Position numbers and translations under genes: made by a program. Under the pieces are notes generated by a model. That model saw only the letters and a list, made by a program, of their open reading frames with translations, did no database searches and was not told the origin of the DNA. Positions 21,714 through 26,521 of a DNA stretch of 64,000 bases are shown here, piece after piece. The stretch's first letter is position 1. Every line of letters begins with the position of its first letter. The DNA comes from Thiogranum longum (GTDB lineage: Bacteria; Pseudomonadota; Gammaproteobacteria; DSM-19610), in NCBI RefSeq assembly GCF_004339085.1, contig NZ_SMFX01000001.1, positions 1,129,227 through 1,193,226 of the forward strand, written 5' to 3'.

Positions 21714-22265
21714 TTACCTGGTGCTGAATTCACCGTTTGGGATTCCGTCGAGTGTCCATTCTCCGACCCGGTAGCGCACCAGTCGCAAGGTCGGAAAACC
21801 GATGTGTGCCGTCATGCGGCGTACCTGCCGGTTGCGACCTTCTCCCAGCACAAGTTTTATCCAGCGGGTCGGGATGGCTTTGCGCTCCCGGATTGGCGGA
21901 TTACGTGGCCAGAGGTCAGGCGGATCCATCAATTCCACCTGTGCCGGCAGGGCAGGGCCGTCTTTCAGTGTGACGCCTTCACGTAACGGCTGCAGGTCGT
22001 CATCAGTTGGATCACCTTCTACCTGCACCCAGTATTCCTTGGTCTTGCCGTACTTCGGGTTGGCGATACGTTGCTGCAGTTTGCCGTCATCAGTCAGTAC
22101 CAGAAGCCCTTCACTATCGTAGTCAAGACGGCCGGCGCAGTAGATACCCGGTATGTCGATATAGTCTGCCAGTGTAGCCCTGGGCCCCCGAGAGGTATTC
22201 ATCTCACCGCCCTCTGTGGTGAACTGCGAGAGCACCTGGAACGGTTTGTTGAACAGTACGATCAC
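21714..22265 (-). CDS. rluE: 23S rRNA pseudouridine synthase E
   Basis: Converts U2457 of 23S rRNA to pseudouridine in E. coli. The 183-residue protein has the catalytic [17 protein letters not shown] motif (Asp48) and the RsuA/RluE-family R-QVRRM stretch near residues 149-156. It lacks an S4 domain, as RluE does. Only 17 bases separate it from the convergent porin remnant. Its ATG overlaps the lon stop by 4 bases, so it is the second gene of a lon-rluE transcript, an arrangement that puts an rRNA modification gene under heat-shock control. Confidence 0.92.
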
Positions 22266-24655
22266 CTGTTGAATACGATCGCTACCACATCATCAAACTT
22301 TTCGGCAAAATTGACCTTGATTCCTTCGCGGATATGTTCGGGGATTTCCTCGAAATCACCGCGATTGGCGGCTGGCAATATCAGTTCACGGATATTCACC
22401 CGCCTTGCAGCAATAACTTTTTCACGTATGCCGCCCACCGGCAATACCTGTCCCGTCAGTGTCAGCTCGCCGGTCATGGCCAGGTTGCGGCGCGGGCGGC
22501 GGTTCATTGCCAGTGACAACAATGCACATGCCATGGTGATACCGGCGCTGGGGCCGTCCTTCGGGGTGGCGCCAGCGGGTACGTGCAGGTGGATCAGCGA
22601 CTTTTCGAAAAAGTCCGCTGATGCCCCCCATCGCTCGGCGTTGGCGAGGATATGGCTATAGGCGATTTCTGCTGACTCACGCATCACATCACCCAGTTGA
22701 CCGGTCAGTTTGAAACCACGCGTAAAGCTGTGAATGCGTGTCGCCTCGATACTCAGCGTGGCACCGCCCATGGCAGTCCAGGCCAGCCCGGTAATGATGC
22801 CGACGCCGGACATGGGTTTCTCACGGCTGAAGATCGGTTTGCCAAGGTAATCTTCCACGTCTTTTGCGCGGACATGAATGGGTGTTTTTTCACCTTCGAG
22901 TATCTTGACGACTGCCTTGCGGGCGATCTTGCCCAGGTATTTTTCCAGTCGTCGAACACCGGCTTCACGGGCATAGTCTTCAACAATCTTGCGCAGTGCG
23001 GCCTTGTCGATACGAAGCTGCCCGCGTGATTTCAGGCCATTGCGTTCGAGCTGGCGTGGCAGCAGGTGGTGGCGCGCAATATCCATTTTCTCGCTGGCGA
23101 GATAACCGGACAGCTGGATAATTTCCATGCGATCCAGTAGCGGGCCGGGGATGGTATCGAGCTGGTTGGCAGTACAGATGAACAGCGTTTTGGACAGGTC
23201 AAACGAGACGTCCAGGTAATGATCCAGGAAATCGCTGTTTTGCTCGGGGTCGAGGACTTCCAGCAGCGCAGAGGCGGGGTCGCCCTGGTAGGATGCACCG
23301 ACCTTGTCGATCTCGTCCAGCATGATGACCGGGTTGGCGGACTGCGTGTCCTTGATGGCCTGGATAAATTTGCCCGGCATGGCGCCTATATAGGTGCGGC
23401 GGTGACCCTTGATCTCGGCCTCGTCCCGCATGCCGCCCAGCGAGAAGCGGAAGAACCTGCGCCCCAGCGCACGGGCAATGGAGCGCCCCAGCGAAGTTTT
23501 ACCGACACCGGGTGGACCGACGAACAGGATGATCGAGCCGGATACCTCACCCTTCATAATGCCGACACCGATAAACTCCATAATACGCTGCTTTATATCT
23601 TCCAGACCATCGTGGTCCTCGTCGAGGATGCGCCGTGCCTCGGTGAGATCCAGCTGGTCTTTTGTATGCACGCCCCAGGGCAGGCTGGTCAGCCAGTCAA
23701 GGTAGTTCCGGGTGGTGGCGTACTCCGGTGAGCCGGTTTCCAGCACCGCAAACTTGTCCATTTCTTCCTTGATGCGTTTTTCTGCGGCTTCAGACAGTGT
23801 CAGTGCTGCCAGCCTTTCCCTGAATTTATCCACTTCTGCCGTGCGGTCATCCTTGGATATACCCAGTTCTTTCTGGATCACTTTCATTTGTTCGCGCAGG
23901 ATATGCTCGCGCTGGTGCTCTTGCATGTCTTCTTCGACCTGCTTGCGGATCTGCGCCTGGGTCTTTGCGACTTCCAGTTCCTTGATCAGCAGAGCATGAA
24001 CGCGTTGCAGTCGTTCAAGTAAATCGACGGCCTCGAGCACTTCCTGCTGCTCATGCCTGGCCGAGGTTGTCAGGCTGGCCGCAAAGTCGGCCAGGTGTGA
24101 AGGGTCATTTGGGTGAAAATTATCCAGGAACAGCTTGAACTCCTCGCCATACAGCGGGTTCAGTGGCACCAGTTCCTTGATGGTGTTGATGATGGCGATG
24201 GCGTAGGCCTTGGTTTCCGGGTCTTCGTCATAAGCCGGTTCAGGGAAATAACGAACCTGCGCCGTAAAAGGAATTTCCTTGCCGATCCATTCGGTAACAC
24301 GGAAACGCTGCACACCCTCCAGTAATACCTGCAGGCGTCCGTCGACACGGCCGATACGGTGTATACGTGCGACCGTACCCATTTTGTAGAAGTCTTTTAT
24401 CGTGGCCTGTTCAGCTCGCTCGGTATTGGCCAGCAGTAGTCCGATCACCCCGTTAGAATTTTCCTGTGCCAGTCGAACAGTGGCTTCCCAGGTGTCAGGG
24501 TCGATCAGCAGGGGGATTACCTGGCCGGGAAAGAACGGGCGTTCGGTCTGTGGCAGTACAGGGATGGTAGTGGGCAGGGCATCCTGCGCGCGGATCAGCT
24601 CGCTGGCGCCTGCATCATTTTCATCGATGTAATCGTTGCTTTCCTGATTGTCCAT
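22262..24655 (-). CDS. lon: ATP-dependent protease Lon (La)
   Basis: Cytoplasmic AAA+ serine protease degrading misfolded and regulatory proteins. The 797 residues comprise the N-terminal substrate domain (to about 235), a coiled coil, the AAA+ module with Walker A GPPGVGKT at 380-387 and Walker [11 protein letters not shown], and the protease domain with PKDGPSAG (catalytic Ser) and [12 protein letters not shown] (catalytic Lys). The start is set at ATG 24655; a longer GTG frame at 24706 would run through the sigma-32 promoter. No clpP or clpX lies upstream. It precedes rluE with a 4-base overlap. Confidence 0.96.
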
Positions 24656-25150
24656 AGTCAGTTTTCTTATTGGCTGTGTCGGGTTATAGAGATGGTGTGT
24701 GCGCAAGGATAAATCAAGCGGAGATAAAAAGGATTTTTGTCTTGCAGGTTATCCACAGTTTCTGTGGATAACTTTGTGGATTAAGTCGGCCAAAGGCTAG
24801 CGAATGCCTGAAAATACGCTTTCGATGTTAAATCGTGCATTTTTTAACCAATTTATAATAATTTATATTAATCATAAAGTTGTGGGATGTTTGTCGACTA
24901 TGAATCAACCGGAAGCAGGTTCGTGCAATGATTATCTTACTGTTTGATGACACCTGTGTATAAGCGGTGTTGGCTGGAATGGTTCAGGCACGGATGTCAA
25001 GGGGTGAGACAGAAAATATCGAAGCCTGGAAGCGCTTTTTTCGAGGCAGTTTCATGGTGCAAAAAACCGTGGTCCGGCCAGCGGGGCAACATTCCCGCCA
25101 GGAATTGCCGCTATACTGCATGCCTCGTTTAAAAGGATAAAAAGAAGCTG
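24656..25150. other. Gene-free divergent region with DnaA boxes and AT-rich tract (oriC-like)
   Basis: Between divergent lon and ppnN there is no credible gene. It holds the lon promoter, then DnaA-box matches: TTATCCACA (24749-24757), TGTGGATAA (24763-24771), near-match TGTGGATTA (24775-24783), and TGTGTATAA (24955-24963, the R2-type box on the other strand). Between them 24840-24879 is about 90% A+T, like an unwinding element, and AATCATAAAGTTG (24870-24882) misses the IHF consensus by one base. A TATACT -10 candidate for ppnN is at 25112-25117. Origin function is not established, because no dnaA, dnaN or mnmG is in view. Confidence 0.5.
24690..24718 (-). promoter_or_regulatory. Sigma-32 (heat-shock) type promoter of lon
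   Basis: On the minus strand CTTGAT (24718-24713) is followed after 15 bases by CACCATCT (24697-24690). This compares with the RpoH consensus CTTGAA-N13-15-CCCCATNT, one mismatch in each box. The predicted transcript start lies about 25-30 bases before the lon ATG. Lon is a known RpoH target in related bacteria. Confidence 0.7.
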
Positions 25151-26521
25151 ATGGATTACGAAGTCGTCGATGCCCGCATCAGTCCGGAAGGACGCCTGGA
25201 CGTATTGTCCAAATCTGAAGTCAACCGCCTGCTCGATACCAGCCAGGGTGGCCTGTACGGCCTGTTCAGGAATTGTTCGCTGGCCGTGCTCAACTGTGGC
25301 AGCTCACTGGATGACGGCAAGGAATTACTGGAGCGTTACCCGGATTTTGCCATTCGTATCATCCAGCAGGAGCGCGGTATCAAGCTGGAGGTCACAGGTG
25401 CCCCGGCGCATGCCTTTGTTGACGGTGTGATGATAAAAGGTATCAATGAGCACCTGTTTGCGGTGCTTCGCGATGTGATCTACGTCAGCGACGAGATTGA
25501 TGACAATCCGAAAATCAATCTCGACACACCGGATGGTGTGACCAGCGCGGTGTTTCATATATTACGTAATGCGCGTGTCCTTGTGCCACGCGCCGAGCCC
25601 AATCTTGTGGTGTGCTGGGGAGGACACTCCATCAGCCGCGAAGAGTATGACTATTCAAAGGAAATCGGTTACCAGATGGGCCTGCGAGGTCTGGATATCT
25701 GTACCGGTTGCGGTCCGGGTGCCATGAAAGGTCCCATGAAGGGTGCGAACATCGGTCATGCAAAGCAGCGCGTCAGTCCCGGTGTCTACCTCGGCATTAC
25801 CGAGCCGGGAATTATTGCAGCGGAGTCGCCGAACCCTATCGTTAACAACCTGGTTATCATGCCGGACATCGAGAAGCGTCTGGAAGCTTTTGTGCGCACC
25901 GGGCACGGTATTGTAGTGTTTCCCGGTGGCGCAGGAACCGCAGAAGAGATCCTCTATCTGCTCGGCATACTGCTGCATCCGGAAAATGCAGAAATGCCAT
26001 TTCCACTGATCTTTACCGGCCCCAAACACGCAGAAGAGTATTTCCGGCGTATCAATCAGTTTATTCTCGACACGCTGGGTATCGAGGCACAACAGCGCTA
26101 CAAGATTATTATTGATGATCCGGAGCGTGTGGCGCGTGAAATGGCCGAAGGCATTCGCCAGGTACGTGAGTTCCGCAAGTTGCACGGTGACGCCTATTAT
26201 TACAACTGGATGCTGAAGATCGATGCCGAGTTCCAGCAGCCGTTTGAGCCTACACACGAGAACATGCGCTCACTGGCATTACACAAGAACCAGCAGCCGC
26301 ACGAGCTGGCGGCCAACCTGCGACGGGTGTTTTCCGGTGTGGTGGCCGGTAATGTCAAGGACGAGGGTATACGTTCCATCGAGGAACATGGTCATTTCGA
26401 GATTCGTGGCGATACGGAGATACTGGAGCCTATGGACGAATTGCTGAGCTCGTTTGTCGCCCAGCACCGCATGAAGCTGCCCGGCAAGAAATACGTTCCC
26501 TGTTACCGGATTATCAAGTAG
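25151..26521 (+). CDS. ppnN: Nucleotide 5'-monophosphate nucleosidase (LOG family)
   Basis: Cleaves nucleoside monophosphates to base and ribose-5-phosphate; E. coli PpnN (YgdH) is stimulated by (p)ppGpp. The 456 residues match it over the full length, with N-terminal regulatory domain, the Rossmann core containing CWGGHSISREEY near 155, CTGCGPGAMKGPMKGA near 184, and the catalytic PGGAGTAEE at 258-266. AAAAGGATAAAAAG precedes the ATG. It lies 9 bases before dsbB. Confidence 0.94.
   Translation: MDYEVVDARISPEGRLDVLSKSEVNRLLDTSQGGLYGLFRNCSLAVLNCGSSLDDGKELLERYPDFAIRIIQQERGIKLEVTGAPAHAFVDGVMIKGINEHLFAVLRDVIYVSDEIDDNPKINLDTPDGVTSAVFHILRNARVLVPRAEPNLVVCWGGHSISREEYDYSKEIGYQMGLRGLDICTGCGPGAMKGPMKGANIGHAKQRVSPGVYLGITEPGIIAAESPNPIVNNLVIMPDIEKRLEAFVRTGHGIVVFPGGAGTAEEILYLLGILLHPENAEMPFPLIFTGPKHAEEYFRRINQFILDTLGIEAQQRYKIIIDDPERVAREMAEGIRQVREFRKLHGDAYYYNWMLKIDAEFQQPFEPTHENMRSLALHKNQQPHELAANLRRVFSGVVAGNVKDEGIRSIEEHGHFEIRGDTEILEPMDELLSSFVAQHRMKLPGKKYVPCYRIIK

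Follow-up and report, generated by a model that had tools for sequence, protein, structure and literature searches.

A DARS, an element that recycles ADP-DnaA, is very probably located between lon and ppnN in Thiogranum longum (probability about 0.87, estimated from sequence comparison), with its accessory sites apparently arranged in an order different from that of Escherichia coli DARS2. The window, a stretch of 64,000 nucleotides that was analyzed as a whole, corresponds to positions 1,129,227-1,193,226 of a closed chromosome of 2,916,906 bp. Based on ppnN, the nearest named relatives are Thiohalobacter MAGs. The original prediction described four DnaA boxes, a one-mismatch IHF match and a tract of roughly 90% A+T (24840-24879) in the gene-free region between divergently oriented lon and ppnN. 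All four boxes and the IHF match were found at the positions given in Table 1, the A+T content of the tract was indeed 90%, and the identities of both flanking genes were confirmed by NCBIfam.

Table 1. Features of the lon-ppnN region and position of the second core. Coordinates are those of the window, except for the second core; offsets are counted from the start of box I.
Feature	Position	Strand	Remarks
lon	22262..24655	-	ATG at 24655; NCBIfam TIGR00763, 942 bits
DARS-type core, boxes I-III	24749..24783	+	start-to-start spacing 14 + 12 bp; 0 mismatches to core pattern
DnaA box I, TTATCCACA	24749..24757	+	faces box II; conserved in L011 and L012
DnaA box II, TTATCCACA (forward letters TGTGGATAA)	24763..24771	-	conserved in L011 and L012
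DnaA box III, TAATCCACA (forward letters TGTGGATTA)	24775..24783	-	one mismatch; same strand as box II
Motif GTTAAATCG	24827..24835	+	+78; common to most family loci, by inspection of listed arms
A+T-rich arm	24829..24904		+80 to +155; peak of A+T profile over 55 loci
Fis consensus GNNYANNNNNTRNNC	24835..24849		+86; exact match in window, second site, L011 and L012
IHF-like site AATCATAAAGTTG	24870..24882	+	+121; one mismatch from WATCARNNNNTTR
Distal DnaA box TTATACACA (forward letters TGTGTATAA)	24955..24963	-	+206; same strand as boxes II and III
ppnN	25151..26521	+	NCBIfam NF038390, 765 bits
Second DARS-type core	G000:C1:2043239-2043273 (L091 5240-5274)	opposite to window core	1 core mismatch

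In the core of the window site, box I on the plus strand is separated by 5 bp from box II on the minus strand, which is followed after 3 bp by box III, also on the minus strand. This geometry was captured in a 35-bp core pattern (TTATCCACA-N5-TGTGGATAA-N3-TGTGNATTA). The number of DnaA boxes by itself is weak evidence: 16 boxes with at most one mismatch occurred in the window, with 10.5 expected, and this count was reached in 6 of 100 shuffles. The arrangement of the boxes is far beyond chance, since the window site and the second site showed 0 and 1 mismatches to the core pattern, respectively, while the best chance matches in 0.6 Mb sampled from this genome had 9 mismatches, with none below. 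Mismatches to the same pattern numbered 1 for DARS1, 5 for DARS2, 8 for datA, 10 for the organism's own dnaA-dnaN region and 11 for E. coli oriC. A genome-wide search for the paired-box motif, allowing up to 3 mismatches, returned two places only, the window site and the second site (paired-box part at 2,043,251-2,043,273). A search for a paired box with a 6-base gap and 2 mismatches, which served as an accidental negative control, gave no match, and neither did a plasmid search with the region.

A DARS core is marked by equal spacing of its boxes and by the opposite orientation of box I (review, PMC5742627). In all four sites compared, the window site, the second site, DARS1 (L155, boxes at 2108 (+), 2122 (-) and 2134 (-)) and DARS2 (L156, TTATTCACC at 1636, CTATCCACA at 1650 and TTCTTCACA at 1662), box I was opposite to boxes II and III, with a spacing of 14 and 12 bp. 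This identity of strands and spacing argues for the DARS reading. DARS1 further resembles the window site in being intergenic and in lying on a replichore away from oriC. It differs in its position upstream of uvrB, in the absence of an IHF-like site at +120 and in the absence of a consensus distal box at +200 to +207, where only a one-mismatch box (TTTTTAACA) is found at +203. The published minimal DARS1 element measures about 101 bp (PMC5742627). DARS2 and the window site have the same core spacing. In both, the side of box III carries an A+T-rich arm with IHF and Fis matches, and another DnaA box follows at a distance of about 200 bp. In DARS2, however, the IHF matches (+93/+109) precede the Fis match (+145), whereas in the window Fis (+86) precedes IHF (+121); moreover, the perfect DARS2 box at +211 and the distal box of the window are on opposite strands, and DARS2 lies upstream of mutH. 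E. coli DARS2 contains two IHF sites 3 bp apart (PMC4245941). Sequence comparison suggests that the general plan is common to the window site and DARS2 and that the accessory order is different. Counting against the DARS reading are neighbors that differ from uvrB and mutH and, apparently, a Fis/IHF order and a distal-box strand unlike those of DARS2.

The DARS2 core was placed at L156 1636 in agreement with deletion primers (PMC4585315) and double boxes defined by ChIP (PMC11317965); based on these primers and the ChIP table, a candidate core at L156 1952 was rejected. Upstream of mutH, positions 1952-1986 of L156 contain a degenerate three-box set with 14/12 spacing (TTATCCCAG, TGTGGATAA, GGTGTAAGA), 316 bp from the DARS2 core. 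Its II/III pair lies under a separate DARS2 ChIP peak (PMC11317965).

Loci for comparison were gathered with the 35-bp core alone, so that features of the adjacent arm provide an independent test. The 60 loci examined in detail were those returned by the search rather than a random draw, and arm statistics were calculated for a non-redundant set of 52. In 38 of these 52, a DnaA box that fits the consensus and has the orientation of boxes II and III was present at +200 to +207; the remainder of the interval from +40 to +390 contained just 2 consensus boxes. IHF-like matches at +118 to +124 occurred in 26 of the 52 loci (dinucleotide shuffling gave an expectation of 0.8 and a maximum of 4 in 200 shuffles), and a Fis consensus starting exactly at +86 in 15 (0.0 expected). 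Positions of the Fis match, the IHF match and the distal box were +86, +121 and +206 in the window and +86, +120 and +204 at the second site. The distal box of the window (TGTGTATAA) fully fits the R-box consensus TTWTNCACA. Among 15 listed loci between L011 and L076 (L011 and L012 included), 13 had a Fis consensus at +86 or nearby, L026 being a named exception. Methylobacter loci were slightly respaced: Fis was mostly at +86, but the IHF match was shifted to about +133 and the distal box (TTTTCCACA) to about +238. In Methylobacter tundripaludum (L029 and L030), the core is about 1.8-2 kb upstream of ppnN. As for the IHF and Fis sites known from DARS2, consensus matches were thus found at conserved positions and in an order unlike that of E. 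coli. These matches are weak consensus motifs and the corresponding sites are best regarded as putative. In the two closest relatives (L011 and L012), the comparison proposed along with the original prediction showed conservation of the boxes between lon and ppnN, including the distal box. Box III was kept in L012 and had one further mismatch in L011, where no IHF match was found at one mismatch.

At least one core was detected in 19 of 20 genomes of the family, in 254 of 369 genomes of the class (gammaproteobacterial) and in 171 of 398 genomes of the phylum sample; taxonomic breadth is expressed here by these three kinship classes. A reversed-pattern control yielded no core in any of the family, class and phylum samples, and several well-sampled families outside the class in the phylum sample had no core. 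When gaps of 0-12 and 0-8 bases were permitted and box letters were kept exact, 112 genomes matched. Among the matches listed, the first gap was 5 in every one and the second gap was 3 in all except two (G306 and G384). The frequency of the core within the class, its fixed gaps and the fixed positions of the Fis, IHF and distal-box matches all argue for a DARS. DARS elements have been reported in close relatives of E. coli, Vibrio and Shewanella being the most remote (PMC8682772). A search of open-access literature yielded no DARS survey that reaches past these relatives, and the original 2009 paper may report more. Judged by the core pattern, the same exact arrangement is present in most sampled gammaproteobacterial genomes, well beyond this published range.

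On the T. longum chromosome, dnaA is located at 123.4 kb and the dnaA-dnaN-recF locus at about 120-125 kb, approximately 1.03 Mb from the window site, with rpmH, yidC and mnmE also beside dnaA (gene names read from translations). A perfect dif was found at 1,612,269. The sign of the GC skew, calculated from 10-kb samples taken approximately every 50 kb, switched from minus to plus in the interval of about 100-250 kb and reverted near 1.6 Mb. Based on the dnaA, dif and skew positions, the window site is well inside the right replichore, at 0.69 of the dnaA-dif distance. The second core, flanked by an NnrS gene and a spermidine-synthase-like gene, shares the Fis, IHF and distal-box layout of the window site and is its near-mirror on the left replichore, at 0.70 of the corresponding distance. 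Among 10 two-site genomes that are closed or nearly so, a convenience choice, 8 had their sites on opposite replichores, which is only suggestive of such a placement. A mid-replichore rule was rejected: relative distances from dnaA in other closed genomes ranged from 0.04 to 0.98 of the arm, and symmetry is therefore not a rule. The E. coli elements were placed relative to dif and to an oriC position that agrees with annotation.

The original prediction considered a possible replication origin. DnaA boxes, A+T-rich DNA and an IHF-like site in a divergent, gene-free region are indeed shared with E. coli oriC, but a main or secondary origin at this site is extremely improbable. In the skew check proposed along with the original prediction, the sampled minimum was near dnaA rather than at the window site (1.154 Mb), and the site is not beside dnaA/dnaN or mnmG. 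The positions of the dnaA-dnaN-recF locus, of the sampled skew minimum and of dif thus indicate that it is not oriC. In addition, the region at 120-124 kb carries a box cluster of its own, E. coli oriC is unlike the core (11 mismatches to the core pattern), and a second copy of the core is present on the opposite replichore. A datA/DARS-like role had also been mentioned. Its DARS half was borne out by a core geometry equal to that of DARS1 and DARS2, while its datA half was not. A site that soaks up DnaA or, like datA, promotes with IHF the hydrolysis of ATP on DnaA, thereby lowering initiation, would fit the IHF-like site between groups of DnaA boxes, and some titration is a property of any high-affinity cluster. 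We nevertheless consider this explanation unlikely. Although datA shares DnaA boxes, an IHF site and a 3-bp double box with the window site, it lacks a head-to-head box I at 5 bp, which is invariant here, so that its box arrangement, judged on the core pattern, does not correspond to that of the window site (8 mismatches). Moreover, the four to five strong boxes are few for titration.

Less probable still is a primary role of the boxes as an operator, with DnaA regulating lon (or ppnN) transcription, as the original prediction had alternatively proposed. A distance of 94 bp separates the lon start codon from box I upstream of it, a lon-side position is retained in L011, L012 and L161 (a family member in which lon adjoins the core), and a double role has a precedent in E. 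coli DARS1, upstream of uvrB, a listed DnaA-regulated gene (PMC11317965). However, the same element adjoins NnrS, spermidine-synthase-like and DUF4136 genes elsewhere. This variation in neighboring genes argues against plain regulation of lon or ppnN. Promoter-like matches in the region did not exceed chance (one, with 1.2 expected), and the arm with fixed spacing spans 215 bp, beyond the needs of an operator. A side effect of the element on lon is possible. A location in non-coding DNA outside oriC, as for DARS, was found for the window core, and no open frame of more than 150 codons covered the core in 55 of 60 loci.

The genome encodes a Fis homologue (53% identity), and IHF is expected to be present. 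Hda is also encoded (TIGR03420, 282 bits with a cut-off of 195), which provides an ADP-DnaA-making route (Hda/RIDA), and ADP-DnaA should therefore be produced. Together with the location away from the origin, the presence of Hda and of the Fis homologue supports the DARS reading. In E. coli, ADP-DnaA molecules on boxes I and II are in head-to-head contact, ADP leaves and the apo-DnaA takes up ATP, while DARS2 is activated by IHF and Fis bound at set distances (PMC5742627, PMC4245941, PMC8682772). By analogy, ADP-DnaA on the head-to-head boxes I and II of T. longum would, with box III, form an oligomer that loses ADP, and the released apo-DnaA would take up ATP, enabling oriC to fire again. Bends introduced by Fis and IHF in the A+T-rich arm probably return DnaA on the distal box to the core, and such bending probably gates reactivation in the cell cycle.

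A wider interpretation, to which we assign even odds, is that DARS is a class-wide gammaproteobacterial device, usually present in 1-3 copies. Outside E. coli relatives, its common form would be a module composed of the core, sites for Fis and IHF, and the distal box, with a length of about 215 bp (about 250 bp in Methylobacter). Bending of the DNA in this module would deliver an additional DnaA to the core and thereby switch reactivation on or off, and the two E. coli elements, DARS1 and DARS2, would represent rearranged forms of it. The invariant core in approximately two thirds of the sampled genomes makes the role of DnaA ATP/ADP recycling in replication timing testable outside the model organism. 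Furthermore, conservation of the distal box and the divergent order of Fis and IHF sites offer concrete mutations for the study of nucleoprotein-complex assembly.

Outside the class, core matches occurred in families f207, f215 and f211, some as overlapping pairs on both strands, and some of these matches may be origin regions rather than DARS. Unusually many matches were observed in a class genome (7 in G060) and in a genome outside the class (8 in G416). An exact 30-bp part of the core was present in 33 viral contigs (L242-L274), among which two sequences, with GTTTC and ACCTT spacers, recur. No distal box accompanies them at +200, and they may represent either host DNA or DnaA sites carried by phages. 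In Methylobacter genomes (L017, L020, L023, L041 and others), the region 180-260 bp ahead of ppnN contains two to three same-strand DnaA boxes approximately 60 bp apart, which are distinct from the DARS core located 2 kb further up.
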